Positions 31,467 through 55,690 of a DNA stretch of 64,000 nucleotides are shown here, one piece after another. The stretch comes from Pyropia yezoensis (Eukaryota; Rhodophyta; Bangiophyceae; Bangiales; Bangiaceae). The notes below the pieces were generated by a model. That model was given only the letters and a program-made list of their open reading frames with translations. It did no database searches and was not told where the DNA came from. The stretch spans positions 13,808,568 to 13,872,567 of the forward strand of contig CM020618.1 of the NCBI GenBank assembly GCA_009829735.1. Reading direction: 5' to 3'. How positions within the stretch are numbered: position 1 is the first letter of the stretch; each line of letters starts with the position of its first letter. Both the position numbers and the translations under genes were made by a program.

Positions 31467-31487
31467 TTTTCCGTATGTACGGCGCTT

Positions 31488-38969: not shown

Positions 38970-39080
38970 CGGGGTGGGAGTGGCGGGGAAACCATAAAAA
39001 GAGGGCGACGGGCGGGGGAGGGGGCACGAATTGAAGTTCGAATTCTGAGGAGCCCGATCACCTGCTGACACCGACGCGGA
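38970..39080 (+). repeat. Direct repeat, right copy
   Basis: Matches 37190-37305 with scattered substitutions (for example GAAGTTCGAATTCTGAGG here and GAATTTCGAATTCCGAGG on the left). Confidence 0.85.
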
Positions 39081-39599
39081 TCAAACGGGAGGGGAGGGGA
39101 TTTGGGCGGCGGCGCGAGATGATGTTGAATTGGACGGTGACGTGGGTGTCCGGGGATGGGTGCTCTCATCCGTCGGCCGCACGTTCAGCCACAGGCAGGT
39201 CAGGTCAGTCGCTTCCCTCGGCGCCCCCCGGGTCTGACGAGAGCCGTAGGTCAACGCGGCCCGCACGGTGTCGTGTGCTGGTGTCAGGCCATTTGGATGC
39301 ACCGCGCAGTGAGCTTGCAGCATGGCAATGCCGTCTGTGGCGGTGGGTTTGAGGTACACGACTGCCCCCCCTCCCCCCCCCACCAAGACGTCCAGGATGA
39401 CATTTTTCCCAAACGGTGCTCGTAGTGTATTGCAAACGGACGGGGCTTACCGGAAGCACCAAAAGGCTGGGTGCCCGCGTCCCGGCACGCCGCTCCACAT
39501 GCACCGTGGCGAGCAGGCAGTGCCGAGGGTGGGTTCAATTGCAGTGTTGCTATTGCCCCACAGCACGGTGGCGGTCACTCTCCCAATACGTGCCGTCGG

Positions 39600-39671
39600 G
39601 AGGGGGGGAGGGGGGGGGGGGGGGGGCGCGGGGGGGGGGGGGGGGAGGTGGGGGGGGGGGGGGGGGGGGGG
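39600..39671. repeat. Poly(G)-rich tract
   Basis: About 70 bases consisting almost only of G with a few A, T and C. No gene is recognised between 39081 and 40441, though a short (CCACCGCCG)n stretch lies near 39840-39900. Confidence 0.85.
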
Positions 39672-40367
39672 CGCTCGCTCGCCATGGTTGGGCGAGCCGC
39701 ACGGATGCTGGCGTGTCAGTCGGCTCAAATGCCACAGTGCATGCGGTGCACTCCGTCCCGCACCCACCGTCGCGCTACTGGCGGCTGCCATGAGCACAGC
39801 GTCTGTGCGCGGTCTGCAATCGGGCCACCAACCCCATCACCACCACCGCCGCCGCCACATCACCACCGCCAGCCCCACCACCGCCACCGCCGCCGCCGCC
39901 GCGCCACAGGACACTCTCACGGCAGCCACCGTCGGCCATGGGTGCCGCGGAGATGAGAAGGACCTTTCATTTCCGGGGCGGCGAGCTAAGGCCACGAGAC
40001 AGCCCACAGGGGCACGTGGCGGTGCGAGCATCCTCCGCTCTGCCCCCTGCCCGAGAGGTAGCGTCGGTTGGGGGGTGGCGGGGGGCGGGCGGCGGGGGGG
40101 GGAGGGGGGGGACGGGAGGGGGTTGGGAGGACCTGGACCGCCGGCCTCCTGACGGCCCGTGCAGCCCATCGCCAGCGTCTACAGCACGCGTACGGCATCG
40201 AGTGAGGACCCCGGCCCGGGTGGTGCCTTGCCAGACAATAAATAAGGCGGTTGGTGGTGCCCCGTGGTTCCCCATCTTTGCCAACCCCATCAGCCACCGT
40301 CGACAATCCCACCCACCCACCCTTCTCACAGTCGTTCCCACACACACAACCCGCTCTTCCGCCTCCA

Positions 40368-40392
40368 CCCCCCCCCCCCCCCCCCCCCCCCC

Positions 40393-40427
<35 letters not shown>
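40368..40427. repeat. Poly(C) tract directly upstream of the Fanzor-like gene
   Basis: Sixty bases of C with a single T at 40393. It ends 14 bases before the start codon at 40442, so it is probably in the 5' untranslated region or marks a 3' splice site region. Confidence 0.9.
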
Positions 40428-40428
<1 letters not shown>

Positions 40429-40441
40429 CCCCGGATTCACA

Positions 40442-41542
40442 ATGAACGATGATGACGACGGCAGCGACCAAGACATTGGCGTCGACGGGCTGGACGGCGA
40501 CACCACCTCAGACGAGGAGGGGGACCCGGCACAAGAGCAGGCGTACGTTCAAGACGCACGCAACGTGGTGACGCTCAAGCGGGCGGTGCTCGCCGCCAAC
40601 CTGAGCCGCCTGCAGGGCGTGTCTGCACCCCACGGGGGCGACGCGGCCTCGTCGGCCGACTGGTCTGCCGCCGTCGCGGAGTTGCAGCAGGCGGCCAAGG
40701 ATGAGGAGGCGGCGGGCCCCCTCGACGGCGCCGGCGAGGACCTCATCGCGGCCATCACAGGCGCGGCACAGGCGGTCAGCGTGTACTGTGGTGGTCGGGC
40801 GGCGCCAAGCGAGGCCGAGGTGGAGCTCGCCGCACGCGCCAAGACGGCCGCTGGGCTGATTGGCGTGGCCGCCGCGGGCTTGCCCCGGCGCGAGGCTGCC
40901 ACTGACGCACCGCCCGCCCGCAAGGGGCGTACGCAAAAGTGTAGCGGATGTGGCGAGCCCGGGCACAAGGTCACCTCTTGCAAGGCCCCGGCTGGTGCAG
41001 GGCCCGCGGCCGCTGCCGCCGCCGCTGCCGCTGCCGCCGCCGTCCCGGCGGCGGCGGCGGCGGCCGCGTCCAAGTGTCGCGACTGCCTGGGAGGGGGCCA
41101 CAGCAGCGGGGACGCCGCCTGCCCGGTGCAGCGGCACTGTGGGGGCGTGTCAGCGGCCTACGACCGCGGTGTCAACCCTGACTGCAAGGACCCGCTTCAG
41201 AGCACTGGAGGGCAGACGCGGGCGTGTACCGTGCCGGTGGGCGTCCTCGCGAGGGCGGTGTTTGGGGACGACAAGGACGACGCCGACACGCGCGCGGCGG
41301 TGGAGACGGCGCTGCAAGCAGAGCTGAAGGACCTCTCTGGGGCGGCTACCAAGCTCCGCTTCCTCATGCTCCGCGTCCTCGACGTGGAATTGCGCCGCCT
41401 GGTGTCCACCGTCGCGGACGCAGCCGCCGACGACGCCGACTGGACGGGGGCCGTGCCCGCAAACTGGGCGCCCTTCTGGCTGTGGTTGGCCTACGCCTGC
41501 GGCTGCGAGGGTGTGTCTGGCAGTCCCCTGCAGGCGGGCACC
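40442..41542 (+). CDS. Fanzor1-like nuclease, N-terminal part, split by a retrotransposon
   Basis: The ATG at 40442 opens 367 codons up to the insertion. The first 40 residues are acidic (MNDDDDGSDQD). Two zinc-knuckle-like motifs follow: CSGCGEPGHKVTSC (C-x2-C-x4-H-x4-C, first Cys codon at 40940) and CRDC...GH...C (first Cys codon at 41075). Poly-Ala runs lie between them. The frame is cut after codon ACC at 41540-41542 and resumes with no gap or shift at 52372, behind the element. Zinc knuckles bind single-stranded nucleic acid in other proteins. This extension is not part of the core Fanzor fold as I know it and may hold extra RNA- or DNA-binding functions. Confidence 0.75.
41538..41542. 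repeat. Target-site duplication GCACC, left copy
   Basis: The five bases before the left LTR equal the five bases after the right LTR (52367-52371). Confidence 0.95.
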
Positions 41543-41905
41543 TGTAGCACAATAGGGATCCGTCGCGCGTCCACTCTCAGGGAACACTCACCAAGGGGGA
41601 TCGGCACCAACGTCACCGGGAGGCCACGGTTGCTGTCCTTGGAGCGCAAGCCACGGGACCAAGATGGGAGCCCAAATGGGAGGGGTTTGTTGTTCTACCT
41701 TGGCCGGCGGTGGATTCGCCACCGGCCCCCTCGTTATAAACCCTCGGAGACACTACTAACTACCCTCCACCCCAAGATGCAAGTCCCTCTGGTCATACGT
41801 AACTTATAGATACCGTGACCAGCTCGGACTCTCAAATTGGAAGTTAAGGATTATAAGTAGCCCCCCTAATATTAGGGTCACAATACGGACAACCATATTG
41901 CTACA
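41543..41905 (-). repeat. LTR (3' LTR in element orientation)
   Basis: 363 bp, identical to 52004-52366 except at 41854. It holds GTTATAAAC, which reads as a TATA-like sequence on both strands. Confidence 0.97.
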
Positions 41906-41907
41906 TA

Positions 41908-41917
41908 TCCCCCTCTT
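41908..41917 (-). other. Polypurine tract
   Basis: AAGAGGGGGA on the minus strand lies two bases before the 3' LTR, the usual place for the primer of plus-strand DNA synthesis. Confidence 0.8.
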
Positions 41918-42491
41918 AGATTCGGCCCGTCCTCGGGTCGAGTTGCATTCGGGGTACCGAATGTAAGTGGGTCACGTGACCGTTTACCCGTCGGGTGGGG
42001 CTTTGCGCCCCGTCACGACAGACACCCCTTTTCGAGGTTGTCCGAGGGGGGTGCCCCCCTTTGTGTGGTACACACACGATCCGTTTTCCGGACCGTTAAT
42101 TTCCCGATGCGGGTTTTTGTTCACGACCCCCCTTTCCGAGGGGTGGTGCAAGCGGATCCGCCACCAGGTGCCTGGTGGTAGGGGGGCCCCTCTCGTGTGG
42201 ACGATTGAGTGGGGGGCGGGGGCTGCCCGCGTTGCGTGGGGGCGGTTGGGGGTGACCCCCCTTTGCTTACCCCGTGTGGGGGGGTGGCCCCGTCCCGCCC
42301 AGGTGCCTGGGTGGAGCGCGTTCGTAGCCCCGTGGGGCGCGGGTCGACCCGCGTGCCTGCGGCGCTTCTCGTGGCCGTTTGTGGTCATAAGCGCGGGTGT
42401 CCGCGCTTCCCTGGCTCGTCCCGGTTATCCGACCGTACCGGGTTGTAGCCGTCGACGGCTTGTGGGCGCGGGGGACTCCGCACCCGTTATC

Positions 42492-43676
42492 ATGTCCTAT
42501 CCCCAGGTGCTTGAAGAGGAGGAAGACCTCCTGATCGGGGAGGAGATGGAGGACGACGCGCCTGTCGGTCCCGACGCCGCGCGTTACGGGGTGAGCTCGT
42601 CTGACGACGACGGGCCTGCGGTGTCCGTCCGTCTGTCGGCCGGAGGACTGTCGTCCGTGTGCAGCGGCACGACGGTGCCGTCGGCCGGAGGTCAACCCGG
42701 CGGTCAACCGCGCGTGGCGGCTTCTACCCCCTCTCTGCCGGCTGCCCGGATGGAGCCTGGTGCCGGTGCCGGCTCACCGCAGGTACCTCAAGATGGTCCG
42801 CCCTGCGGCGGAGGTGGCGACCCGCAGCCGACTCCGGCTGGTCAAGGTGGTCCGGGTGTCCGGGCGGTGACTCCTCGAGGCGGTCCCGACGTTGACGCGG
42901 GTGGTGGTGGCGGTGCGACACCCGGTGCGGTGGGTCAAGACGGTGCGGGTGTCCGCACGGCCGGGGCTCCGGCTCCGGAGGCTGTCCAAGTGCCTTCCAC
43001 TTCCGAGGCGGGGGCTACGCCGACGGGTGGTGCCGGCGCCGGTACCATACCTGCGGTGCCGCGGGTGTCGAGCGGTCAAGACGCTCCTTCTCCCATGGCG
43101 GTTGACACCGGGAGTTACTCCGGGCGGGCGCCCGCCCTTCTTCTTCCTCCTCGGCCTCGTCCATCTCCGACGTCGGCCCCTCTGCCGGTGGTGCGTCCCC
43201 CGGCGCCCCCGATTCTTCCTGGTCCTGCCCGGGTTGCCCCGTTGGGTGGCGGCGTCGCCGTGGCGGCGGGTCAACCCGCCATGTCGGTGTCCGACTTGGT
43301 GGCTCGGGTTCGAGGCCTCACGGTGCAAGAGTCGATGGAGTCCGATGGGCGTATGCGGGTGGACTTCCACCTGGTGCATCCCCGTGGAGAATCCTCCCGG
43401 CGCGTCAAGGTGGACCCGTGCTGGGAGCGGGAGTTGGTGCGGCTGGTCAACCAGCCGAACGCGGTCCGGGTGGAACACCATTGGATCCTGAGTCAGCCGG
43501 ACGACCGGCATGCGCAGCTCTGGCGCACCCGGGTGGGACGGGGTGAGGTCTACCTCGACCCCAACTTCGGGGTCTGCGACCTGATTGCCCCCGCGTTGCC
43601 GCGGGAGATTGACTACCCGGCTAGTGCTCGGGGATTGCGGCGGCGGCGGAGCCGGTTGCGTTTGGGGAGACGGTGA
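42492..43676 (+). CDS. Antisense ORF A of the retrotransposon, unknown
   Basis: A 394-residue protein read opposite to gag-pol. The ATG at 42492 is the first in a frame open from 41967. The N-terminus is acidic (LEEEEDLLIGEEMEDDAP), the middle is Pro/Gly/Ala/Val-rich, and the last 130 residues look folded (SDLVARVRGLTVQESMESDG onward) and end in an Arg cluster. Amino-acid use is normal on this strand and odd on the other, which supports real coding. It overlaps ORF B by four bases in the -1 frame. Extra antisense ORFs between pol and the 3' LTR are known in some plant Ty3/gypsy groups; homology to these could not be tested here. Confidence 0.7.
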   Translation: MSYPQVLEEEEDLLIGEEMEDDAPVGPDAARYGVSSSDDDGPAVSVRLSAGGLSSVCSGTTVPSAGGQPGGQPRVAASTPSLPAARMEPGAGAGSPQVPQDGPPCGGGGDPQPTPAGQGGPGVRAVTPRGGPDVDAGGGGGATPGAVGQDGAGVRTAGAPAPEAVQVPSTSEAGATPTGGAGAGTIPAVPRVSSGQDAPSPMAVDTGSYSGRAPALLLPPRPRPSPTSAPLPVVRPPAPPILPGPARVAPLGGGVAVAAGQPAMSVSDLVARVRGLTVQESMESDGRMRVDFHLVHPRGESSRRVKVDPCWERELVRLVNQPNAVRVEHHWILSQPDDRHAQLWRTRVGRGEVYLDPNFGVCDLIAPALPREIDYPASARGLRRRRSRLRLGRR

Positions 43677-44938
43677 GCCGTACCGGTCGGTATCCCGACT
43701 TTGACTACTACCCGGGGGTACCCCCGTATCTGTCGTTGACGGCTCCCTACCCGCCCATGGCGGGGTTGAAGTCGGCGTCGAGTTGGCGACGTAATCATGG
43801 TGTCATGGCGGATGCGTTCCGCACGGATATAACGTGTGCGTTGCAGACCGGCAACGGTCGTGCTCCGGTATACACTCCCGTGCGCCCGCCGCTATGGCAG
43901 GAGGGGTGGGAACCCGCCCCTGCTTTCCGGTTTGACACCGGCTCCTGCCTCCGATACTTCGGGAGTGTGTTGGCCTCCCGGCCGGTCCACCCGTTGCAGG
44001 GTACCTTCACCCTTGAGGTTACCCTCGGGCAGGCTTCATCCTTCTTGCTGTCCGTCCGCCGGCAGGGTCGTCTGTTTCATCTTCCGACGGGTGTCCGTCG
44101 GCACATCGCGCAGTTGGGCGTGGATCTGATAGCTGCCAAGACCGGGTTGGCCCGGGAGTTCGAAGCCCTGCTGGCTGTTCACGATGCCGTGAACTGGGCT
44201 GGGGTGTTGGCCCTTCCCCCGTACCGGGACCCGCAGGCTGGGGCTTCCCCCTTGCCTCGTCACTCGTTGCGTGTCCGGCGTACTCAGCCGGGTGAGCCTA
44301 GTTGCCATGGGTGGGCGTCCACCGAGGCCGTTCCTGACCTGGGTATTCCCATGGTTATCCATGACCCTCTTCAGGTCCTTGCTCCGTGGTTCGGTAACCC
44401 GATGCCGGCGGCGGTTGGCCGTCGTCCCCGAGAGTGGGGCTCTGTGGGTGGGGATCGTGAGGTGTCCCGTCGTCGGGCGGAGTACCGCCGTGGTTACGGT
44501 GGAGCCCCTTCGGTAGGGTCCTACCGGGCCTCGTATCAGGTGCCACCGGCTCCGGTGGTAGCCGTGTCGGCTCCTGTGGCTCCTCTGGCTGCGCCAGTGT
44601 CACCTCCCGCCCCTGTCCTACATGACGGGGGTCCCCGTCTCTGGTATGAAGGCGTTGACGCCCTTGTTACCCGCGCAATGCGTGGGGGTCTCTCTGTTAG
44701 CTGGGGGGATATCCCCCCAGGTGCTGCGCTGGTTGGGTCAGCGCGTTGCTTTGGTGGCGTGCTGGACCGCCTCCAGAAAGCTCTGGAGGACGTGGAGGCT
44801 GGCCGCAGCACCCTCGTCCAGCTATGCACCGAGGTAACTCGGGTGGTCGACCGTCGTGACATTGCCGACCGGTGGAGCACGGAGGTATACGCGCTTACGC
44901 GTGAAATGCCTCCCTCGGGCAGTGGGTCTACCCACTGA
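43673..44938 (+). CDS. Antisense ORF B of the retrotransposon, unknown
   Basis: About 420 codons in the -1 frame relative to ORF A, with the first ATG at 43757 and another at 43805. It could be made by -1 frameshifting at TTTGGGG (43661-43667) shortly before ORF A's stop or by starting at an internal ATG. The product has a Tyr/Pro-rich start (YPDFDYYPGVPPYLS), a likely folded middle (FTLEVTLGQASSFLLSVRRQ), a Pro/Ala/Val linker, and a helical C-terminal 100 residues. No known domain is recognised. Size and position could suit a structural or regulatory accessory protein, but that is a guess. Confidence 0.65.
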   Translation: MSRTGRYPDFDYYPGVPPYLSLTAPYPPMAGLKSASSWRRNHGVMADAFRTDITCALQTGNGRAPVYTPVRPPLWQEGWEPAPAFRFDTGSCLRYFGSVLASRPVHPLQGTFTLEVTLGQASSFLLSVRRQGRLFHLPTGVRRHIAQLGVDLIAAKTGLAREFEALLAVHDAVNWAGVLALPPYRDPQAGASPLPRHSLRVRRTQPGEPSCHGWASTEAVPDLGIPMVIHDPLQVLAPWFGNPMPAAVGRRPREWGSVGGDREVSRRRAEYRRGYGGAPSVGSYRASYQVPPAPVVAVSAPVAPLAAPVSPPAPVLHDGGPRLWYEGVDALVTRAMRGGLSVSWGDIPPGAALVGSARCFGGVLDRLQKALEDVEAGRSTLVQLCTEVTRVVDRRDIADRWSTEVYALTREMPPSGSGSTH

Positions 44939-45419
44939 GGAGTGCTATTTGTTTGTGAGGGAGAGGGCCCCGGCAACCCTTATGGTAGCCGGGTAGTAGT
45001 GAGTATAAACTCATCCCCCGCTGGGGGCATTGCTTGCCTCTGTTTGCTGCCCTGGGGAGTACCCCTTCTGGCTCAGTGGTGCCTTGCCTCCCGCCCAACT
45101 TCTTCCGGTTGGTTCATGCTTGGGGAGGTTATCCTCCCTCACTTTGTGTCTTGGCTTGGGGAGGTCATCCTCCCGTGTAAGCTCCCTAGTTACTTCGATA
45201 TTATCGGAGTTAGCCTTTACCTTTAAGTTAACTTATTAAGGTTCAGGTTTTTTCTTAGTTACCTAAGCTTAGCTCTACTTAGTTACCTAAGCTTGGTTCG
45301 ACTTAGAAACCTAAGTCTGATTTGACTTAGAAACCTAAGTCTGCCGTAACCATGTCACACCCTACTTAGTAGGTATAAGCCTCACCCCCCAACAGCCGAA
45401 GTCGGTGTCGGTTGGGTTG
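44939..45419. other. Spacer between ORF B and the end of pol
   Basis: AT-richer than the rest of the element and without a gene. It separates two convergent coding units, so both should end transcription or processing here. It contains four 24-bp repeats listed separately. Confidence 0.6.
45254..45349. repeat. 24-bp tandem repeat, four copies
   Basis: Copies start at 45254, 45278, 45302 and 45326. Each holds the inverted repeat CTTAG-NN-ACCTAAG (TTACC in the first two copies, AAACC in the last two). Confidence 0.9.
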
Positions 45420-48400
45420 TTACAGTAGGCGTCGTCGCCTCATGTACGGCATGAGGAGTTGGCGGGGTATATTCGCCGCCTGTTCCCAGGTGGGTGAGTC
45501 GTATCCGACCCACATAACCTTGACGTACCAGGGTCCTGGTATGTCCGGGTCGGTGTGTCCGACCACGCTCTCTACTTGGTATGGAATCCCATCCGGTCCC
45601 ACCGGGTCATCCGACCGGTGGGTTGTAAGAGCTTCATGTAGCAACCCAGCCGGTACCGGCTGAGGCTGTTCCGGCTTCGGAGCAGGTGTGACATCATTCA
45701 TACTGATGCGTTGGATCTCCGTATCGGAGTGTAAGATAACAGAGTGGTCATCTCTGTGGAGGATCTGGTACGGTCCCTTGACCGGTTGCATAAGCTTGTT
45801 CCCTCGGAACTTCTGGTGTCTGATATAGACCCAGTCACCTGTTACCAGGGTTGCGTTGCGCACCCGTAGTCGGGCGTCGAAGTTCTTCTTATACCGAAGT
45901 TGTGTTCTGTCAAGGGCACCCTTGAGCTTAGGAATCATCCACGATAGCTTGGCCAACCAAGCTAGGTGGATGCGTTCGGCGGGTCGGCCCTTCGGTGTAT
46001 CATACCGAGTGCACCTGCCGGGTGGCAGCGTCAGGTTACCGACGCCTAGTGGCATGACCCACTCCAGCGGAGCAATGTCTGTGCTCCGATGTGGCCTGGC
46101 ATTGTATGCCAGGGTGAGTACGGACAGAAGCCTGTCCCAAGTGTTCGTGTGCTCGGCCACGTAGCACTGTAGCATCTTTACGATGGTGCGGTTGAACCGC
46201 TCCACCTGCCCGTTGGACTGCGGGTGGTAGTCGGATGCCCGACGTGGTTCGATACCGAACATGCCCAGGACCTTCGTGCAGAATGCCGACGTAAGGTTTG
46301 CTCCGTTATCGGAGAGGAGTTGCTTCATGACTCCGTATGCACTGATCCAGTGGTCAACCACTGCGTTCATGATCGTGTATGCCGTATCATTCGGGATGGC
46401 TGCCGCTCTTGACAGCTTAGTGAAGCGGTCAGACATGACCAGGATGTACCTGTTCCCTTCTTCCGTTATCGGAAGTGGCCCGAGTATGTCGATAGCGACT
46501 TGCTCGTTGGGCCCATCAGGTGGGAATAGCTTCATGGCAGACGCCTGCCTATGTAGACTCATGCGGTTACGTGCACAGGGGTGGCATCCCCGTACGTGGT
46601 CGACCACGTCGACGGCCATTGCTGGCCAGTAGAAGAACCTTCGCATTGCTGCGAACATACGTGAACCCCCCGGATGTCCGGCTGTAGGGTTCTCATGTTC
46701 TCGTTCCATGACGGCTTGCCGTAAGGACACGGGAACCACGACTTGATGTCGTCCATCGGCGGGTGCCCGCCGGTATATGAGTCCGTCTTCGTTCTCGGAG
46801 AAGATGCCGGCTGTACCGGCCAGGAGGTTAGCACGATGACGTCTACAGTCATCGTCGTTGGCCTGTGCCTCGCGGAAGTCCGCGAGGGTCAATGGGCACG
46901 CAAGGTGTGCCATGGTATGGTCAACCATACCCTGGGTAGCATTACCCACCATGCACACCGGTACTACCGGGATGTCCTCGTCCACCGGGCGGGTATCCCC
47001 GCTCGGGGTGTCGAGTCGAGACAACGCGTCTCCGAGGTGGTGGGTTGACCCAGCCTTATACACCGTGCGGTAGTCGTGCTCGGCCATCTTCAGCCTCCAT
47101 CGGGCTAGCCTCCCATGGCTATCGGAATCCTTGTCACCAAGGTTGAGGAGCCATCGTAGGGGTTCGTGGTCGGACCTCACGATGAACCTGGAGCCCTCCA
47201 GGTATGGACGGAGCAGTTGCACTGCCCATATAACTCCGAGGCATTCACGCTCGGTGGCACTATAGTTCCGCTCAGCCGGGTTGAGTGTCCGGCTGAAGTA
47301 CCCTACCGGACGTAGGTCCGGGATAACGTTATCGGTACCGATCAACGTCTCTCCCTGTAACAGGGTGCATCCCACTTGTGTATCACACGCATCGACATCG
47401 ATGACGAAGGTACCCCGTCTATGCGGTAACGCAAGGACGGGTGGGGCTAGTAGGGCTCGCTTCAGCGACTCGAATGCCTCCTCTTCGCTAGGCGAAGGGG
47501 GTTGGAGTACCTTGGGTAAGGTACTGCTCGTAAGAACCGTTAACGGTTTAGCTATCCGAGCGAAGTCCTTGACGAACCGTCGGTATACATTGCACATTCC
47601 CAGGAAGCTCTTGAGCTGCGTCTGGGTGTTAGGGAACCGGGCATCCCGGAGTGCCCGGGTATTGGCTTCGAGTACCCCTAGTTTACCAGGGGTTATCTGG
47701 TGGCCCAGATATTCGACCGTCTGTTGGAAGAAGGCGCACTTCTTCAGACGCAGGGTTACCCCGGCGTTCCTCAAGAGGGTGAGTACCTCGTCAACATGTT
47801 GTACATGGTCATCCATGTTACGCGAGAAGACGATGACGTCATCGAGGTACACTAGGCAGTTACGCCACTTCACCCCAGACAGTATGATGTCGATAGCCCG
47901 CTGGAATGTAGCGGGGGCGTTGGACAATCCGAAGGGCATCCTTAGGAACTCGTACACTCCACTGTGACAGACGAATGCCGTCTTGGGGATATCCTCGTCC
48001 GCCACCGGGATCTGCCAGTATCCGGCATTGCAGTCGATGGTGGTAAACACCGTAGCCTCCCCCAGGGAGTCGATGCATTCATCCATCCTTGGTAAAGGGT
48101 ATGAGTCCTTCTTGGTAACCAAGTTGAGGCGTCGATAATCGATGCAAAACCGAGGGGTTTGATCCTTCTTCGGCACAATAACGACTGGGGCACCCCATTC
48201 CGACATCGAAGGTCGGATCACCTTAGCTTCACTCATCCTCTTCACTTCTCCATCAACGATCTCTCGTTGCATAGGTCCCGCTCGGTGCGGTTGTGAGCGG
48301 GCGGGCCGTGCGCCTGGTACCAGGCCTATACGATGTTGGGTTGCCCCAATGGTCCCCAAGGCCCCGCCTGTCCACATAACGTCATGCTTTCTTAGCATCC

Positions 48401-49586
48401 GTCGTACCCCTTCGGCTACCGAAGGGGGAAGGTGGTCGAGGTTAGCCTCGGCCAGTGCCTTCAAGGCCTCTTGGTCCTTTGGCGGCAGGTCCGCCGGAGC
48501 CGCCGATGGGTTAGGCTTCCCGTCATCGGGTTGCTGTCGCTCGGTGGTCTCGGCGACCGCCAGTACTTCAAGTGGTTCCACTTGACCTTCCTTATCCGGG
48601 GTAAGGATATCTCCTTCGTAGAGTTCGGCAATCCCGAGGATAGTTCCCTTCGGGAGGGTGACTGCCTTACGGCGGTAGTTCGCCATCACTAGGAGGGACG
48701 ACCCTCCTGCTGGGAGGTCTATGAGACCGTTGGCCATGGTCAACCCATGGCGCTTGTACGTCCGTAGGTTGGACTGGACTCTGCAGATGCCTGCGAGGTC
48801 GCAGTTAACCGGGAGGACTGTCTCCGACAACGGCTCAAAGCGAGTTCGCTTGGCCAACCGAAGTGTCTTCGGCTCGACGCTTGCGTACACCTCAGCCACG
48901 TTAACGTGGCTTCCTTGTAGCGTCAGGTCCCTGACGATAGCCGTGTGTCCTCGCTTCGTCCCGTCGGCTTCTTGAAGCTCGACGGTCCTCCGGCCTGGCC
49001 GGATTGCATCAACGTGAACGTTGATGAAGGTGCACCCCAGTATGCAGGGCACCGATAGCGTTTCACATACCAGGAAGTCAACTTCCGTGGTGAGATCCCC
49101 GATGGTAACCCGCAGCGACATCGCTGCGGTCGTACGAATGAGTCGACCATTCGCGTCCTTGATGGTGGGTCCCCGAGTCACTCTGACTCGTGGAAGCCAC
49201 TTGTCCGGGAGGGTATCCTTCCGGATAAGGTTGGGTCCAGCCCCTGTGTCCAGTACAGGGTAGTACGATCGTGTCGACTGGGGGTCAACCCCCAGTGTGG
49301 CTGATACCTTGAAGTTCTCCAAGGTAAACAACACATGTCCTACACCGATATCCGGTGTAGCTCGGGCATCCTGAACAGGGCCCTTGTCTGGTTCAACGTG
49401 AAGGGGCTTCCCGTCCTCTCCTCCCAACCTCGGAGGTTGGTCATCAATCCCCTGACGCCGTGTCGTCGGGGCCGGAAGGTGTACCCGGGGGTTGATGCGG
49501 CGTCGGCTCAACCGCGCTCTCCGTGGGGCTTTCCCCGCGGTACTCCGGGGTGGCTTGCTTGGGTGACCCCAGCGCCCCCCGGTCAT
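45420..49586 (-). CDS. pol: Pol polyprotein of the chromovirus
   Basis: 1388 residues from the ATG at 49586; the frame is open further upstream into the end of gag. Domains: aspartic protease with DTGAG at 113-117; reverse transcriptase about 440-630 with D518 (TTIDCNAGYWQIP) and YLDD at 580-583; RNase H about 725-860 starting FVIDVDACD; integrase with zinc-binding H964 or H971, C1001 and C1004, and the catalytic triad D1033, D1093, E1129; and a chromodomain-like end (YQVESVVG, VMWVGYDSPTWEQAANI). All catalytic residues that can be checked are present, so it looks functional. It is probably made as a gag-pol fusion by -1 frameshifting at 49601-49607. The stop is TAA at 45420-45422. Confidence 0.97.
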   Translation of the reverse strand: MTGGRWGHPSKPPRSTAGKAPRRARLSRRRINPRVHLPAPTTRRQGIDDQPPRLGGEDGKPLHVEPDKGPVQDARATPDIGVGHVLFTLENFKVSATLGVDPQSTRSYYPVLDTGAGPNLIRKDTLPDKWLPRVRVTRGPTIKDANGRLIRTTAAMSLRVTIGDLTTEVDFLVCETLSVPCILGCTFINVHVDAIRPGRRTVELQEADGTKRGHTAIVRDLTLQGSHVNVAEVYASVEPKTLRLAKRTRFEPLSETVLPVNCDLAGICRVQSNLRTYKRHGLTMANGLIDLPAGGSSLLVMANYRRKAVTLPKGTILGIAELYEGDILTPDKEGQVEPLEVLAVAETTERQQPDDGKPNPSAAPADLPPKDQEALKALAEANLDHLPPSVAEGVRRMLRKHDVMWTGGALGTIGATQHRIGLVPGARPARSQPHRAGPMQREIVDGEVKRMSEAKVIRPSMSEWGAPVVIVPKKDQTPRFCIDYRRLNLVTKKDSYPLPRMDECIDSLGEATVFTTIDCNAGYWQIPVADEDIPKTAFVCHSGVYEFLRMPFGLSNAPATFQRAIDIILSGVKWRNCLVYLDDVIVFSRNMDDHVQHVDEVLTLLRNAGVTLRLKKCAFFQQTVEYLGHQITPGKLGVLEANTRALRDARFPNTQTQLKSFLGMCNVYRRFVKDFARIAKPLTVLTSSTLPKVLQPPSPSEEEAFESLKRALLAPPVLALPHRRGTFVIDVDACDTQVGCTLLQGETLIGTDNVIPDLRPVGYFSRTLNPAERNYSATERECLGVIWAVQLLRPYLEGSRFIVRSDHEPLRWLLNLGDKDSDSHGRLARWRLKMAEHDYRTVYKAGSTHHLGDALSRLDTPSGDTRPVDEDIPVVPVCMVGNATQGMVDHTMAHLACPLTLADFREAQANDDDCRRHRANLLAGTAGIFSENEDGLIYRRAPADGRHQVVVPVSLRQAVMEREHENPTAGHPGGSRMFAAMRRFFYWPAMAVDVVDHVRGCHPCARNRMSLHRQASAMKLFPPDGPNEQVAIDILGPLPITEEGNRYILVMSDRFTKLSRAAAIPNDTAYTIMNAVVDHWISAYGVMKQLLSDNGANLTSAFCTKVLGMFGIEPRRASDYHPQSNGQVERFNRTIVKMLQCYVAEHTNTWDRLLSVLTLAYNARPHRSTDIAPLEWVMPLGVGNLTLPPGRCTRYDTPKGRPAERIHLAWLAKLSWMIPKLKGALDRTQLRYKKNFDARLRVRNATLVTGDWVYIRHQKFRGNKLMQPVKGPYQILHRDDHSVILHSDTEIQRISMNDVTPAPKPEQPQPVPAGLLHEALTTHRSDDPVGPDGIPYQVESVVGHTDPDIPGPWYVKVMWVGYDSPTWEQAANIPRQLLMPYMRRRRLL

Positions 49587-49594
49587 CCTTCCTC

Positions 49595-51784
49595 TTACTC
49601 GTTTCCCGCCCTTGGTAGGGTGCTGTCCGCCGGGACATCCGGCTGAGGAGGTGCCCCCTCGACGGCCAGTACTCCACCTCGAGCTGGCTGCCTACCCGGT
49701 GCGGGTCCGGGTGCTCGGGGGGGATACCCCCCGGTGGATGCCTTGCGTTGCGCCGCTGCCCGCCGAGACTCCTCGGGGATGAGTGGGCAGGAAGACACCC
49801 AGTGCTGGGGATCCCCACACAACATACATCCGGACGTGCCGGTCCCCCCTTGAGGTCGCATCGGGGTAGCCCCGTAGCTACGGTTGCCTCCCTCGGGCGC
49901 CCGAGTGCCTGCTCCCTGGTAGGCCTTGGGTCCTTGGGTCAACCGGAACATGGACTCCCCCAACCGGTTGGGTCGGCCCGCAATCTGCGGGGGTGCCTCC
50001 GTGCGCACCGCCCATGTTGGCAAGGGTTGGTGAGGGTTACCCGTCACCGGGGAGTACCCCGTAGTCCGCACATACGGGACGCGCCGTCCCGTTCCTTCGT
50101 TGACCTGGAACTGGGTTCCAGCCGGGGCGATGTACGCTACCGTACCATGTTCATCAATCACCGGCGTCGCCGGTAGCAACAGGTGGCCCTGTTGGTCGAC
50201 TAGAGGGTCATCCTCACCAATAGGGGTATGTTCGGTCGCCACCAGTACTGGTGCGGCCTTACGTTCCACCTTCTCTTGCCTCGGTACCGGGGTAAGACTG
50301 GGCTTGCCTCCCTCACCCTTGGGCTTCGGGGCCAAGGCACACTCCGGGTGTAGAACCCGGTAGGCGTCCCCTAGGGACTTGCACATATGCATCAGTCGAC
50401 TGAAGTTCGTCCGTGCCGTGTTGGCGCCCCGTGCGGATATCCGCACGTAGTTGGGTACTCCTGCGAACAGGATGGCCCGTAGCTCCCCTTCTCCGAGGAG
50501 CTTCCCCAGCTCGTAGTCGAGCTCTTGGATCCGGCGTCCAAACATCTCCTCATCCTCCCAGGACTGGGCGGTGGCAGTGCGAAGGGCCCGATAGTGGTCC
50601 TCGCACTTGTCCTCACTGAGGTAGCTGCTCAGCAGCTCCTTCAATATCCCACGGTAATCCATGGGGGTGGCCGCGACCCTCATTCCCGGCATCGGGGATG
50701 CCTGGCGAAGAATGCCTCGCACCCGTTCATCAACAAAGAACGGGAGGATCTCCAGAGCCAGCCCCTCGTTAACGAGCGCCTTGTCTGCGGCTGCCTTGAA
50801 GCTGGTCAAGAAGCCGATGACTGCCAACGGGCGTCCGTTCGGCCCCCCGAACATAGGGACTCCCTTCATAAGGGTCTGCATAGAGCGGATCGCCCGATGC
50901 GACGTATTACGCATCGATTCCGATACGGTGGTAGAGCGGTCCTCCAAACGATAACGTTCCGGAGTAAGAACCGACCGGAAGACCTCGTTGACGATCTCCG
51001 TGTCAGCGTCCTGGATATCCAGTCGCTTAGCCAGTTGATGAGCGAACTCATCGGACTCCATCCGCTTCAGTAGGCTCGCAGTTACCTGCGCGGTCATAGC
51101 TTCCACCACTGAAGATGGTACTTCAGGCGTCGGCACCTCGGGAACCCGAGTTGCCTGGCCTCCTTCGTCGTGGGGGTACTGCGAGAGGGTACCTCCTCCT
51201 CCAATAACCGACTCTCCCCCGGCGTACGTATCTGCAGGGTCGTGTCCGCGGAGTCCGCTTCGGGTGCTCCGAGCGTATCGCTCCGTGTGACTCCGTTCCA
51301 ACTCTGCCGACGAGTCGGACCCATACCCCATTGTGTCCGGGGGTTGTCCAGGAGTAGCAACACCGGGGTTGACCCTGGTGGACTCCGAAAGTAGTCCGGC
51401 CGGTTCGAACCGTACCGGTGTGGGAGGAACACGACGGGGTCCCGTCGTGTGCCGTGTTGACATCAACACTGCCATTGCGTCCTCCGTCCGATCTTGACGG
51501 GCGTCGAGCCCGGAAAACCGGGCCTCGATGCGGGCCAATGATGCCATCAGGGAATCCCCTGGTGAAGGAGGCGGCGGAGTGAGGTCGGTCGACGACAGTT
51601 GAGGCGGGCCCCCGCCTCCTGCCGTCCGAGCCGTGCCAAACGTCGATCCGGCACCGGAAAGCATTGGCGTCTCAATGTTATCGATCGGGTTCCCGATCCC
51701 GGTTCCCGTAGTCACCTCCGGAGTCGGCGTCGACGCCGATCCGTCATCTTGAACGTTCCCCGTCTCTTGGGTAGACATAGTCAC
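49595..51784 (-). CDS. gag: Gag protein of the chromovirus
   Basis: 729 residues, with possible starts at residues 1 and 3. The N-terminal 200 residues are polar and Pro/Thr/Gly-rich. The central part (about residues 230-480) is helical and fits a retrotransposon capsid. Near residue 650 a CCHC zinc knuckle, CMLCGDPQHWVSSC (C-x2-C-x4-H-x4-C), should bind the element's RNA. The stop is TAA at 49595-49597, with the slippery heptamer just before it. Pol begins in the -1 frame. Confidence 0.95.
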   Translation of the reverse strand: MTMSTQETGNVQDDGSASTPTPEVTTGTGIGNPIDNIETPMLSGAGSTFGTARTAGGGGPPQLSSTDLTPPPPSPGDSLMASLARIEARFSGLDARQDRTEDAMAVLMSTRHTTGPRRVPPTPVRFEPAGLLSESTRVNPGVATPGQPPDTMGYGSDSSAELERSHTERYARSTRSGLRGHDPADTYAGGESVIGGGGTLSQYPHDEGGQATRVPEVPTPEVPSSVVEAMTAQVTASLLKRMESDEFAHQLAKRLDIQDADTEIVNEVFRSVLTPERYRLEDRSTTVSESMRNTSHRAIRSMQTLMKGVPMFGGPNGRPLAVIGFLTSFKAAADKALVNEGLALEILPFFVDERVRGILRQASPMPGMRVAATPMDYRGILKELLSSYLSEDKCEDHYRALRTATAQSWEDEEMFGRRIQELDYELGKLLGEGELRAILFAGVPNYVRISARGANTARTNFSRLMHMCKSLGDAYRVLHPECALAPKPKGEGGKPSLTPVPRQEKVERKAAPVLVATEHTPIGEDDPLVDQQGHLLLPATPVIDEHGTVAYIAPAGTQFQVNEGTGRRVPYVRTTGYSPVTGNPHQPLPTWAVRTEAPPQIAGRPNRLGESMFRLTQGPKAYQGAGTRAPEGGNRSYGATPMRPQGGTGTSGCMLCGDPQHWVSSCPLIPEESRRAAAQRKASTGGYPPRAPGPAPGRQPARGGVLAVEGAPPQPDVPADSTLPRAGNE
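49601..49607 (-). promoter_or_regulatory. Likely -1 ribosomal frameshift site GGGAAAC
   Basis: On the minus strand the gag codons read GCG GGA AAC GAG TAA, so G-GGA-AAC fits the X-XXY-YYZ slippery pattern three bases before the gag stop. A -1 slip enters the pol frame, which is open from here. GC-rich sequence follows and could fold into the required downstream structure. Confidence 0.75.
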
Positions 51785-51985
51785 AATCAGTCAACCGACG
51801 CAACGACCACCACGAATAAGAGAGCGAGGGGGTAGATTGGGGAGAGTAACAGTAGGTCACAGTCACAGGTAAAAACTCAACACAATCGATCAGGTCGCAA
51901 CACCACGAGTACAAGAAAAGGACCGGATCCCTATCCGTGTGCCAGGGCCGAAGACGGCGTCACCACAAGGGTGACGGAAACCCGT

Positions 51986-52002
51986 CCCCTGCTGCTCCAC
52001 CA
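51986..52002 (-). other. Primer-binding site
   Basis: TGGTGGAGCAGCAGGGG on the minus strand, next to the 5' LTR. It starts with TGG, complementary to a tRNA CCA end, and would pair with a tRNA ending GCTGCTCCACCA. The tRNA cannot be named from this alone. Confidence 0.7.
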
Positions 52003-52003
52003 A

Positions 52004-52366
52004 TGTAGCACAATAGGGATCCGTCGCGCGTCCACTCTCAGGGAACACTCACCAAGGGGGATCGGCACCAACGTCACCGGGAGGCCACGGTTGCTGTCCT
52101 TGGAGCGCAAGCCACGGGACCAAGATGGGAGCCCAAATGGGAGGGGTTTGTTGTTCTACCTTGGCCGGCGGTGGATTCGCCACCGGCCCCCTCGTTATAA
52201 ACCCTCGGAGACACTACTAACTACCCTCCACCCCAAGATGCAAGTCCCTCTGGTCATACGTAACTTATAGATACCGTGACCAGCTCGGACTCTCAAATTG
52301 GAAGTTAAGGATTAGAAGTAGCCCCCCTAATATTAGGGTCACAATACGGACAACCATATTGCTACA
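52004..52366 (-). repeat. LTR (5' LTR in element orientation)
   Basis: 363 bp, with one difference from the other LTR (G at 52315). Confidence 0.97.
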
Positions 52367-52371
52367 GCACC
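52367..52371. repeat. Target-site duplication GCACC, right copy
   Basis: Matches 41538-41542. Confidence 0.95.
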
Positions 52372-53847
52372 GTGTGTGCGGGCTGTGGCAAGGGGCGGGC
52401 CAACACGCGGATGGCGCGCGCCCGCTCTGTGGTGACAACGAGCCACCCGCTGCTGGCAGAGGCGCTCTCCTACGCCCTGACGCAGGTGATGGCCGTCACG
52501 GCAGCTGCGTGCGACCGGTATCTTCCAGCGAGCAACAACACGGCACGATGGCAGCCCGTCGCCACCATCGTGGCCACCCACGCCGGGCGGTGTGTGGACG
52601 CGGCGTGTCGCAAGCTGGGCGCCAAGGCGGCCAAGGACGCGCTGGCCACTCCCCCCGCTGCAACGGCTGCTCCAGCGGGCGGCTCTGCCTGGGACTCGGA
52701 GCGGCGGCTGACGCGGTGGGCGGCCGCGCGCTTCCGCGCGGGTACCGCGGACAAGGCAACGCCGGGCCGGTGGGGCCTCGACGGCGTCCCCCAGCATCTG
52801 GTCCAGGCGCTGGCGCAACGGGTAGCCGTCATGCGGGCGGCCATGCCACCCTCTGTGGCTGGCCTCTTTCCAGCAACGCCTGTGAAGAAGCGCCGCTGGT
52901 GGGCGTACGTGCCGTTTCTCCTCCACGTCCTGAATGTGGGTGTGGGGAGCCCGTACGCCCTCATCCCTGGCGCCCGAGCGGTGCTCCACGGGCACGGCAC
53001 GCTGGTGCCGGACAAGATGCTCGCCCTGTTGCGGGCAGTTTCGGCCGCCACTGGCGTAGGGGTGCGTGGCCACCCCAGTCTTCGGGCATGGCCAGAGCTG
53101 CGAACAGGCGGTGCAGCGGTGCTGGCCGCCATGGCTGGTGTCGGTGGCCGCGCCAACCGGGCCTCCCCCCAGCTGTCTACCGACGGCGTGGCGGTGACGT
53201 TTTTTCTGTCTCGACCCGACACGGCCGCAGAGGCCGAGGCGCGGGCGGTGGCCTGGGCCAGGAAGCTGGACGGCGGTGGACGTGCGCGGGACCGCGGCTA
53301 CAAAGGCTTTGCGTCCCGGGCGGGGGTACTGACGCAGCTCGAGCGGGCTGGCCTGCCGTTGGCGCGCGTCCGGTGGCTCCAGATGGTCGGTGGAGACCCG
53401 GGACGGTCTGCCGTGCTGTCGGCAGCACCGGGTGAGCGCGTGGCGACGGCAGACCTCCCAGCCCGCCCCGCTGTAGCCGCGATGCGCGCAGCGTGGTCCC
53501 GCCACATGGGCTTGGACGCGCTCAACCGGGCGGCCGTGGCGCTTCTGCGTGGGGCGGGCGTCCAAGACAAGGTGGCGGCAGCCGCAACCGTGCCCGACGG
53601 CCACCCACCGGGGGGGTCTAGGAAGCGGGCGGCGGCGGGTGCCCCGGCTGCAGGGGCGGGGACAGGGGGGAGCCGTTCCAAGCGACAAGCGCGGCGGTCG
53701 TCACCCGAGGGCAGCGACGATGATGCGGCGGCGGTGGCCCCGGCGGCGGCGGGTGGGACGACGCCCCCCGAGGCAAGGACCTACCAGACGGCGAGCCCCG
53801 GCGGTGGCCACGGGCGCGTGCGGCGTGGGCCGCAGGCATCCATCTGA
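52372..53847 (+). CDS. Fanzor1-like nuclease, middle part with RuvC-I
   Basis: This continues the host frame after the retrotransposon: 491 codons to TGA at 53845-53847. CAGCGKG near the start may complete a zinc site with the CGC just before the insertion. Fanzor/TnpB landmarks follow: PYALIPGAR near residue 198, then TDGVAVTF-FLSR near 270, then RuvC-I, VGGDPGRSAVLS, with the catalytic Asp codon at 53395-53397. The sequence then goes into a basic low-complexity stretch rich in Ala, Gly and Arg. RuvC-II and RuvC-III are beyond the TGA in the same frame. Fanzors are RNA-guided DNA nucleases related to TnpB and usually ride on transposons. Confidence 0.8.
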   Translation: MCAGCGKGRANTRMARARSVVTTSHPLLAEALSYALTQVMAVTAAACDRYLPASNNTARWQPVATIVATHAGRCVDAACRKLGAKAAKDALATPPAATAAPAGGSAWDSERRLTRWAAARFRAGTADKATPGRWGLDGVPQHLVQALAQRVAVMRAAMPPSVAGLFPATPVKKRRWWAYVPFLLHVLNVGVGSPYALIPGARAVLHGHGTLVPDKMLALLRAVSAATGVGVRGHPSLRAWPELRTGGAAVLAAMAGVGGRANRASPQLSTDGVAVTFFLSRPDTAAEAEARAVAWARKLDGGGRARDRGYKGFASRAGVLTQLERAGLPLARVRWLQMVGGDPGRSAVLSAAPGERVATADLPARPAVAAMRAAWSRHMGLDALNRAAVALLRGAGVQDKVAAAATVPDGHPPGGSRKRAAAGAPAAGAGTGGSRSKRQARRSSPEGSDDDAAAVAPAAAGGTTPPEARTYQTASPGGGHGRVRRGPQASI

Positions 53848-55470
53848 CGGGCCCGCCGCACCCAGCTCGCCACCTCGGTGCGGCGTGTGCTGCGTCGCAC
53901 GCGCCTGTCCCGGTGGACTGTGCCCCGTCACGAGGCGGAAAAGGTGGCACGGTGGCTGGTGGACCCCACTGCCGCGGCGGGCGACAGTGCCAGCGGCACC
54001 ACCCTAGACGCGCCGCTGCAGAACCGGGTGGACGCGCTGCCCCGGCGCAAGGGGTGTCGTCGACTGGCACCCGTCCCCGGCCTTCGCTACAGCCTGAGTG
54101 CCGCCCACTTTCGGGAGGCCAGCGGCGGTAACTTTTTGGCCCGTGCGTGGAAGCAGTGGCGGGCACGCAGCGGTACTGAGGCGGGACCGGTGGCGGTGGC
54201 GGTGGCGGGACTGGTGGCGGCGGCGGCGGGTGACGGAGGCGGCGTCGCTGGCCACCTACCACCCGTCGACTTGGCAGCAGCACACGGCACGATGCGTACC
54301 GGCGACGACGGCAAGCACCTGCAGGCAACGCTCGAGTGGGCCGCCCGTCGCGACACGGCCGCGTACGGCCAGCGATTTGGCGCGCAAGCCACGCGACACC
54401 TGCGGACGGCGCGTGTGCGCAAGGCCATCCAACGCGGCCGCTTTGCTGCCTCGGTGGCGCGGGACCTGACCGGCGGCCTCCTTCGCCAGGTCCGTGGCGG
54501 CGGCGCGGTCGTCGTGGCCATGGGCACCGCGCGCGTGCGCGGGGGGGACGTTTGGCTCCGCCGCCACCTCCGACGGCTGTGCTGGTTTGTCGACCAGGAC
54601 GAGTTCAACACCAGCCAGGCGTGCTCCGAGTGTCACGACAAGATGGTGCTCATCTACCCGACGGGCAACTCCCCCCCCAAGATTCCAAGAGAGCTGAATG
54701 GGCCGCCGGCCGGCCCTCTGCCGTCGACACGGCGTGTGCGGATGGCGGCTGGGTCGCGTCGGGGGCGGCCAAAGCGGGCCCTCCCCTCTGCTACCCACGT
54801 GACGCGCCGAGGGCCAGACCCCGACGCCTACCGGGAGGCCGTCCGAGCCACTGCCCGTGCTGCTGCTGTGGCGCGGCGCGCGGCCGCGCTGGCCGCCTGT
54901 GCCGTCGAGGACCGCGCCGTCTATGCCGACCCGAGGCGGCTGAGCGAGTGGGCGGCCAAGGGCTGCTACACGTGCTCTCTCGCGGCCCCACAAGGCCCCG
55001 GTCACCCAGCGCCACACCCGCCCGTGATTCGCAATCGGGACGACGTTGCGGCCCGCAACATTGCGTGGGTGGCCGCTCGTCGTCTCAAGGGTACCAATGT
55101 GTGGCCTTTCAAGCGCCCGTTTGGTATGAGGTGGGCCTGGACGACCAAGCGTCCTCCCAGTGGTGTTCCCGTCCCGCCTGTGCGTCGCACCCGTGCGACT
55201 ACGCGGGTCGATGTATGGCCCGTACTCGCTGCAGTGGACACTGTCGTCGACGGTGGTGGTGGCGGTGGCGGTGGCGGTGGCGGTGGCGGTGGCGGTGGCG
55301 GTAGGGGGGTTGTCGACGGCGACGCGACGGCGGCGTCCTTTACGACGCGACGCGGTGCTCCTGGTGGGGAACAGGTGGCGGCGGCCGGCAGTGCCATGGA
55401 CGGGGTACGTCGGGCGGAGACGGGGGCGACAGACGCGCCCCGTGGTCTGGTGGACACTGCAAGGCGCTAA
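53848..55470 (+). CDS. Fanzor1-like nuclease, C-terminal part with RuvC-II/III and zinc finger
   Basis: Same frame as the middle part; there is no ATG near the beginning, so it must be a continuation. YSLSAAHFREASGGN near 54090 matches the conserved segment after RuvC-I in Fanzor1 proteins. VVVAMGTARV then DEFNTSQACSECH (Glu codon at 54601-54603) form the RuvC-II region and first zinc-ribbon pair; this DEF-x-TS form is typical of Fanzor rather than bacterial TnpB. CYTC is the second pair, and NRDDVAARNIAW holds the RuvC-III Asp (codon 55039-55041). All expected acidic residues are present. The tail has a (GGTGGC)n run of Gly codons at about 55255-55302. Without the retroelement and the TGA the whole frame is about 1,400 codons. 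Confidence 0.85.
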   Translation, partial: RARRTQLATSVRRVLRRTRLSRWTVPRHEAEKVARWLVDPTAAAGDSASGTTLDAPLQNRVDALPRRKGCRRLAPVPGLRYSLSAAHFREASGGNFLARAWKQWRARSGTEAGPVAVAVAGLVAAAAGDGGGVAGHLPPVDLAAAHGTMRTGDDGKHLQATLEWAARRDTAAYGQRFGAQATRHLRTARVRKAIQRGRFAASVARDLTGGLLRQVRGGGAVVVAMGTARVRGGDVWLRRHLRRLCWFVDQDEFNTSQACSECHDKMVLIYPTGNSPPKIPRELNGPPAGPLPSTRRVRMAAGSRRGRPKRALPSATHVTRRGPDPDAYREAVRATARAAAVARRAAALAACAVEDRAVYADPRRLSEWAAKGCYTCSLAAPQGPGHPAPHPPVIRNRDDVAARNIAWVAARRLKGTNVWPFKRPFGMRWAWTTKRPPSGVPVPPVRRTRATTRVDVWPVLAAVDTVVDGGGGGGGGGGGGGGGGGRGVVDGDATAASFTTRRGAPGGEQVAAAGSAMDGVRRAETGATDAPRGLVDTARR

Positions 55471-55690
55471 GACAGCGCACATCTTGCCCGTGACCCTCAC
55501 CTACCACGGGGTGCGTCAGCCGCCCCCTTTTTCGCCGACGAGCCAATTATGGGTAATTGTCGGCCGATCACTAGTAGGTTAGACGCCGGCTTTTCCCGGG
55601 GACCTTTCCCAGGATGAGTCGGATGTTTCCCGGAGGGGTTTAACCGATAGTTATGACGAGGTTAATAGGCTTTTTTCCGAGTGGAACTTG
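55471..55690 (+). ncRNA. Possible guide-RNA (omega RNA) region after the Fanzor-like gene
   Basis: A non-coding stretch less GC-rich than both neighbours, directly downstream of the Fanzor stop. It contains repeated CCCGGGGACC / TTTCCCAGG / TTTCCCGGAGGGG elements that could pair with each other. In known systems the guide RNA lies at or overlaps the 3' end of the nuclease gene near the transposon end. There is no direct proof here. Confidence 0.25.

Follow-up and report, generated by a model that had tools for sequence, protein, structure and literature searches.

The stretch of Pyropia yezoensis DNA analysed here (the window: 64,000 nucleotides of contig CM020618.1, positions 13,808,568 to 13,872,567) contains, at 40442-55470, a gene with nuclease-like landmarks that is interrupted by a retrotransposon, which raises the questions of what the gene encodes, what carries it and whether its interruption is exceptional. 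The initial annotation, made from the letters alone, described it as a Fanzor1-type RNA-guided nuclease gene split by a single fresh insertion and caught, unusually, at the moment of inactivation. That reading, i.e. one gene and one insertion, covered only a corner of a larger object, namely a repeated unit that measures 45.9 kb or more. The gene is probably an inactivated TnpB/Fanzor-like nuclease gene at the right end of this DNA mobile element, with a candidate guide scaffold at its 3' end.

The interrupted gene and its copies

The Fanzor/TnpB-like gene consists of three pieces on one strand, separated by the long terminal repeat (LTR) retrotransposon and by a stop codon (ORF, open reading frame):

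40442..41542, + strand: part A of the gene; start codon at 40442, open frame, at least 81 matches in its own genome
40940-40981 and 41075-41122, + strand: two CCHC-type zinc knuckles in part A, by pattern in the translation; zf-CCHC_6 reaches E 0.62
41538..41542, + strand: left copy of the target duplication GCACC
41543..52366, - strand: Ty3/gypsy LTR retrotransposon of about 10.8 kb inside the gene, by pol domains, LTRs and target duplication
41543..41905, - strand: 3' LTR, 363 bp, 99.7% identical to the 5' LTR
45420..49691, - strand: pol ORF with RVT_1 (E 3.4e-36), RNase H, H2C2 and rve
49595..51790, - strand: gag-like ORF, by position; zf-CCHC_2 reaches E 0.072
52004..52366, - strand: 5' LTR, 363 bp
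52367..52371, + strand: right copy of the target duplication GCACC
52367..53844, + strand: part B of the gene, with RuvC-I GGDPG; at least 88 matches in its own genome
53845..53847, + strand: in-frame TGA stop separating parts B and C
53848..55470, + strand: part C of the gene, with a PF07282 match of 18.3 bits; at least 93 matches in its own genome

Every landmark named in the initial annotation was found, on a single strand and in the order claimed: TDGVAV from about 53179 and VGGDPG (with GGDPG at 53389-53403) in part B, followed in part C by YSLSAAHFREASG (FREASG at 54109-54126), DEFNTSQACSEC at 54598-54633, CYTC at 54964-54975 and NRDDVAARNI from 55033. This order is far beyond chance. 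Among the 317 six-frame window ORFs of at least 100 amino acids (66,728 amino acids), the loose motif [TS][TS]xxCxxC...CxxC...RD occurred once against 0.016 times per shuffled set (500 sets), and the strict motif [TS]SQxCxxC ... CxxC ... [DN]RDxxAAxN[IM] likewise occurred once, but in none of 1000 shuffled sets.

The insertion of the retroelement is real and recent, as had been proposed. Its LTRs are identical at 362 of 363 positions, i.e. with one mismatch, and have TG...CA ends; an intact GCACC duplication stands on either side, and the reading frame is uninterrupted across the insertion site once the element is removed. The pol order (reverse transcriptase, RNase H, integrase), the LTRs and the 5-bp duplication are those of Ty3/gypsy LTR retrotransposons, from which the window element differs by a pair of long ORFs on the opposite strand that lie between pol and the 3' LTR. 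These overlap (41967-43676 and 43625-44938, + strand, 569 and 437 amino acids) and have no significant Pfam match. The TGA at 53845-53847 is a break that the retroelement leaves unexplained and, since parts B and C lie in one frame with only this codon between them, the gene has two independent breaks.

To place this copy among its relatives, the Pyropia yezoensis genome (107.5 Mb, in which the window lies on a contig of 43,592,136 bases) was searched with each part. After matches at 30-42% identity had been dropped, 73 rows for part A (of 81), 86 for part B (of 88) and 88 for part C (of 93) were clustered. They gave 75 full or partial loci of the gene, of which 62 hold all three parts, and in 49 of those 62 no gap within the gene is as long as 300 bp. 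Approximately 10 of the 75 loci, the window copy among them, have gaps of more than 4 kb inside the gene; the gaps were located by coordinates, with the sequence of the insert read in the window copy only, and the count is given as about 10 rather than 11 because the locus C1:11679486 resembles two neighbouring copies. Interruption is therefore common, and a copy found in this state is not the rarity that had been supposed. Stop-free open frames of at least 1445 amino acids were found in 17 copies, starting from the part-C matches, and the ratio of nonsynonymous to synonymous change (pN/pS) among 20 copies was 0.53 for part C and 0.45 for part B (190 pairs each), suggesting that the protein is moderately constrained.

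The giant repeated unit

The Fanzor-like gene is the right-hand gene of a unit that runs leftwards through the rest of the window and beyond it:

1..55652, + strand: right-hand portion of the unit, by piecewise ordered DNA matches to other copies; extends at least 2.5 kb left of the window
37308..38937, no strand assigned: second nested insert of 1.63 kb, with imperfect 12-bp inverted ends and a TA duplication; absent from the copies at L042, L059 and L060
55633..55652, + strand: right end of the unit, GAGGGGTTTAACCGATAGTT; shared by all 20 copies read there, with the exact 20 bases in 16

Homology to other copies was found at window 35306, 32183, 25300, 10500, 3800 and position 1, as well as in the 2.5 kb beyond, and for one copy on contig C2 ordered, piecewise matches extend from 21330633 as far as the right end of that copy, at 21376550. 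The resulting 45.9 kb is a lower bound, the left end being beyond the sequence compared; 43.2 kb of the unit lie in the window after subtraction of the two nested inserts.

The right end is sharp. All 20 copies in which it was read, which are the best part-C matches and include the window's own, terminate at one base, window 55652, and the 30 nucleotides that follow are unrelated among them (25.6% identical on average), starting with A in 15 of the 20. The end reads ...ATAGTT, which we take to be a loose resemblance to the ends of CACTA elements, and ...ATAGTG, with a different last base, in L012. Across the genome the right-end motif occurs at 80 places with up to two mismatches (46 forward, 34 reverse), compared with 0 for a reversed control; an inverted repeat of it was found nowhere else in the window at up to three mismatches. 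A Fanzor part lies within 2.5 kb of 53 of these 80 ends and at 5-22 kb from 10, whereas the other 17 lack one over a distance of 60 kb.

Upstream of the Fanzor-like gene the unit carries further ORFs, including a large helicase and genes of chromatin type:

11050..12252, + strand: ORF with RING finger (PF13639 above its cut-off, E 1e-8); also present in other copies
15723..17621, + strand: ORF with a possible, weak DUF262/ParB-like domain (PF03235 E 0.051, below cut-off); repeated elsewhere up to 17500
18130..20301, + strand: ORF with no family assigned (only a PF17848 zinc ribbon at E 0.0049, below cut-off)
22583..24309, + strand: possible adenine/cytosine DNA methyltransferase; overlapping ORFs 22583-23812 and 23671-24309, with a DPPYNI motif
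24306..25340, + strand: ORF with SET domain (PF00856 E 1.6e-6, above cut-off); repeated in copies from 24944 on
31467..35768, + strand: IGHMBP2/UPF1-like superfamily 1 helicase ORF of 1433 amino acids (PF13087 E 7.9e-33, PF13086 E 1.3e-22)

The helicase also matches TIGR00376 at E 9e-37, yet below that model's cut-off. For the methyltransferase candidate all scores are below cut-off (PF01555 E 0.0078, CcrM E 0.0096, RsrI in the PDB E 0.26). An HxD...H...R pattern in the ORF at 18130-20301 presumably hints at a 2-oxoglutarate dioxygenase, a lead only; the part at 18853-20301 gave no PDB or NCBIfam match. Gene content of this kind, i.e. helicase, SET, possible DNA methyltransferase and RING, resembles that of large algal viruses.

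The association of the helicase with the Fanzor-like gene was assessed over 57 helicase loci, clustered from 71 of 85 rows after matches at 41-44% identity had been dropped. Part C lies up to 15 kb downstream on the same strand in 43 of the 57, whereas 1000 random placements gave 0.31 such loci on average and never more than 3; the distance is 5.0-7.3 kb in 40 of the 57. Further to the left, 19 of 21 segments (the long matches among 95 rows) have part C within 120 kb, a count that has no random control.

It is unlikely, though not negligibly so, that the unit is instead a mosaic in which a short Fanzor-like element, consisting of the gene and the right end, has its own mobility, with the helicase and SET repeats being separate neighbours or recent fusions. 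The 17 right ends with no Fanzor part nearby would fit such an arrangement, as would the occurrence of the helicase-to-gene stretch in two variants and the helicase loci that have part C only at 15-60 kb (8 of 57) or not within 60 kb (6 of 57, the remaining 51 having it within that distance). However, the C2 copy matches the window in ordered pieces over 45.9 kb, the two inserts excepted, and the spacing of 5.0-7.3 kb recurs in the majority of helicase loci. Two further points weigh against a single large element. Window 17500-24943 lies outside the copy comparisons, with the spacing alone fitting (7.6 kb on C2, 7.8 kb here). No transposase domain was found among the 22 unit ORFs scanned with Pfam (of 317 six-frame ORFs in the window). 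The scan of these 22 ORFs also gave no tyrosine-recombinase captain and no DNA polymerase B with integrase, which mark Starships and Polintons respectively. The only Fanzor-free right end that was read, one of the 17, is a remnant and not a short independent element. This sequence, L074, matches window 55445-55654 at 95% and was considered as an independent copy of about 210 nucleotides, but its first 87-95 nucleotides match another repeat that is also present at L051 and L070; because the sequence preceding the match belongs to that other repeat, which adjoins the unit in L070 too, L074 is best regarded as a remnant beside it.

The end of this other repeat (L074 1-87, L051 905-998, L070 1254-1341) adjoins broken pieces of the unit at the equivalents of window 55445 and 30488, and is perhaps that of a mobile element which often lands in the unit. 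Within the unit, the ORFs at 2810-3559 (+) and 4515-5345 (-) contain stretches of protein that are similar by eye (FFGLLTG.PGAA...), forming an inverted pair with no known family by Pfam, and two tandem-repeat arrays with a period of about 355 bp (14001-15261 and 27550-29143) belong to one family, are about 90% alike and each stand upstream of a group of ORFs. Just past the right end is a host gene for a 3-hydroxyisobutyrate dehydrogenase-like protein (55870-57162, - strand; PF03446, PF14833), the unit terminating about 220 bp beyond its stop codon. A second family of UPF1-like helicases occurs at 14 places in the genome (41-44% identical, open frames of up to 1940 amino acids) with no Fanzor match within 60 kb, and is perhaps part of a related giant unit that lacks Fanzor.

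The 3' end as a candidate guide-RNA scaffold

TnpB and Fanzor elements are expected to bear a guide-RNA scaffold at the right end, and the corresponding part of the unit is a candidate for one:

55433..55652, + strand: candidate guide-RNA (omega RNA) scaffold, overlapping the gene end; by fold and low variation
55653..55672, + strand: flanking DNA, the putative guide should the unit follow the TnpB/Fanzor rule

The last 181 nucleotides of the unit diverge between copies by 1.36%, compared with 2.5% in the preceding 120 coding nucleotides (20 copies) and 4.0% in the approximately 560 nucleotides upstream of the gene (16 of another 20 loci). The last 220 nucleotides fold better than 100 shuffles (z -5.2), with z of -2.6, -3.5 and -3.0 at 80, 120 and 150 nucleotides, and the fold of the window copy is kept in 96% of pair cells, a figure that the closeness of the copies alone could yield. 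The 182-nucleotide fold barely beats its shuffles (z -1.49), the changes between copies are one-sided with no compensatory change in the fold, and two of the five other copies tested, L015 and L074, prefer different folds. An Rfam search of the window gave no match at gathering scores. This little-varying, folded 3' end is consistent with a scaffold of the kind described for SpuFz1, GtFz1 and PpFz1, where, according to the parts of the sources available, gene and guide RNA can overlap, the 3' flank acting as the guide (PMC10432273, PMC11423790). The resemblance extends to the D-E-D (or N) triad; activity has been demonstrated for those three proteins, whereas for the P. yezoensis gene we infer it.

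If the gene is such a nuclease, the intact protein would have about 1450 amino acids, with an N-terminal extension bearing the two zinc knuckles, followed by a split RuvC-type site formed by the D of GGDPG, the E of DEF and the D of NRD, which surrounds a zinc ribbon. The last approximately 220 nucleotides of the element would be transcribed as the scaffold, reading into the flanking DNA, such that each insertion would draw a guide from its own landing site. Nuclease and guide could then cut the unoccupied sister or allelic site, with repair favouring the copying or retention of the unit, and the helicase and chromatin-type genes may help in replication or regulation. In the window copy the gypsy element and the nonsense codon would have stopped production of the protein, with the scaffold end remaining. 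A tentative extension, which we regard as possible but improbable, is that these are giant elements whose right end is itself the guide scaffold, so that each insertion writes a new guide, up to 80 self-acquired guides scattered over the genome are served in trans by the roughly 17 nuclease genes that are open, guides are still provided by dead copies such as the one in the window, and loss of the element is prevented by the nuclease.

Relationship to Fanzor, TnpB and other large elements

Whether the protein is a Fanzor was judged from its residue pattern, its relatives and searches against known families. Among 20 loci, regular expressions recovered VGGDPG in 17, the DEFNTSxxCxxC form in all 20, CYTC in 19 and NRDDVAARN[IM]A in 18. 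Three more distant relatives are P0004 and P0005, about 63% and about 55% identical (the pair spanning 55-64%), and P0013, 38-39% identical. The RuvC-I motif reads GVDPG in the first two and SVDPG in P0013, [TS]SQxCxxC is kept in all three and the glutamate before it in P0004 and P0013, and NRDxxAAxN is seen in P0004 alone, P0005 and P0013 having different ends; P0013 retains the pattern in part (SVDPG, EEHNSSQACSGC). The published Fanzor motif is D-X(125,275)-[TS][TS]xx-C4-X(5,50)-RD (Bao and Jurka 2013, PMC3627910). In the window copy the RD lies 20 residues past CYTC, within the published 5-50, and both cysteine pairs of the zinc site (TSQACSEC and CYTC) are present, but 110 residues apart. 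The gene is also carried by a mobile element, as Fanzor and TnpB genes are (75 loci, with a common right end and unrelated flanks in the 20 copies read).

Several results weigh against membership. The spacing from D to [TS][TS] is 404 residues, through a low-complexity linker, compared with the published 125-275; the E of DEF is replaced by K in P0005; and the second CxxC is absent from P0004, with none seen in P0013. The profile search of the three host parts, suggested by the initial annotation as a check, did not support the assignment, with PF07282 reaching 18.3 bits on part C (E 0.0027) against a curated cut-off of 26.3, no PF07282 match in a search of the whole genome, and an NCBIfam scan that likewise gave no match. 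With E allowed up to 10, PF07282 was matched by two of six alignment members, and P0004, P0005 and P0013 gave no match when scanned individually. No Fanzor or TnpB was named among the PDB matches listed (for one search, the best 60 of 296), the matches obtained being chance ones to single-chain variable fragment linkers, designed repeats and L25. The missing PDB matches weigh little, because a control search with the Escherichia coli TnpB InsQ returned 36 PDB matches and likewise no chain named Fanzor. A profile comparison with the single TnpB sequence InsQ gave a probability of 0.8% and is uninformative. The second suggested check, structure prediction, was carried out with AlphaFold2 on alignments of 6 and 8 sequences, and the models were unusable, their mean predicted local distance difference test (pLDDT) scores of 35.7 and 38.0 being too low to judge the fold.

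Because of the 404-residue spacing, the 110-residue gap between cysteine pairs and the lack of profile and PDB support, the gene is named here Fanzor/TnpB-like and not a member of Fanzor1, and formal Fanzor membership is not proven. The initial identification thus holds as regards the TnpB/Fanzor residue pattern, and the Fanzor1-type label, which the profiles, the PDB and one spacing do not support, is set aside. Compared with Fanzor1 as described in the available part of PMC3627910, the window gene is alike in the RuvC aspartate, the [TS][TS]xx-CxxC and second CxxC, the RD 20 residues on and its multicopy carriers, and it differs in both spacings, its length of about 1450 amino acids, its two N-terminal knuckles and the missing profile match.

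The same difficulties would suit a different zinc-binding transposon protein that reached the pattern by convergence and is not a TnpB/Fanzor nuclease: there is no significant profile, PDB or structural match, the length and the two zinc knuckles are unusual, and one spacing falls outside the published motif. We nevertheless consider this quite improbable, given the ordered DPG ... E-x-N-[TS]-S-Q-A-C-x-x-C ... NRDxxAAxN[IM], the C-terminal part of which appeared in none of 1000 shuffles, the retention of DPG, E and [TS]SQxCxxC in P0013 at 38-39% identity, and the position of the gene beside a little-varying structured 3' end, as in TnpB and Fanzor elements; the InsQ control, with no Fanzor-named chain among its 36 matches, further reduces the force of the missing PDB hits. 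That the unit is an endogenous large DNA virus or a segmental duplication, with copies made by duplication, is very unlikely, since the virus-like gene content and the presence of Fanzors in giant viruses (in the available part of PMC10432273) are set against a Pfam scan of 22 unit ORFs that revealed no domain of a capsid, of a polymerase or for packaging, and against the finding of no relative of the nuclease, and no close relative of the helicase or the ORF at 18853-20301, in viral contigs, and since segmental duplication is disfavoured by the common right end of 20 copies whose flanks are unrelated and which occur on three contigs and in both orientations.

A TnpB/Fanzor-like nuclease gene at the end of a giant mobile element accordingly remains the preferred explanation, and we infer nuclease activity, RNA binding and guidance, and transposition of the unit. 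The nearest counterparts are known from other red algae. CMe-1A of Cyanidioschyzon merolae, a Fanzor1-family element of about 3 kb with approximately 150 copies (available part of PMC3627910), is likewise red-algal and present in many copies, and terminal inverted repeats and target duplications are undetermined for it, as for the P. yezoensis unit. It differs in size, at about 3 kb compared with at least 45.9 kb, and the available part of that paper mentions no helicase or SET gene for it. The enlarged EnSpm/CACTA elements of Chondrus crispus, of 16-20 kb with 4-5 ORFs (as cited in the available part of PMC6431247), are also large multi-gene DNA elements of a red alga; the P. yezoensis unit is more than twice their size and has no CACTA transposase in the 22 unit ORFs scanned. 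PMC6431247 nowhere uses the word Fanzor, none of six red-algal, helicase and large-transposon terms is present in PMC10711439, and no report of a giant Fanzor-like unit was found among the matches listed from open-licence PMC full text. Fanzors in the literature consulted are on ordinary transposons or viruses, the printed red-algal case being of about 3 kb (available part of PMC3627910).

With its helicase, chromatin-type genes and terminal Fanzor-like gene, a repeated unit of this size (at least 45.9 kb) would link RNA-guided nucleases to giant eukaryotic elements. Its approximately 75 loci, with 17 open genes and with broken genes that keep the 3' end, constitute a natural experiment on whether the nuclease or the scaffold alone retains a copy. 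A distant Fanzor-like family in the same genome, about 30-42% identical (C2:7469228-7472362, C1:9124602-9127769, C2:15531244-15534501 and others), offers useful material for a deeper alignment.

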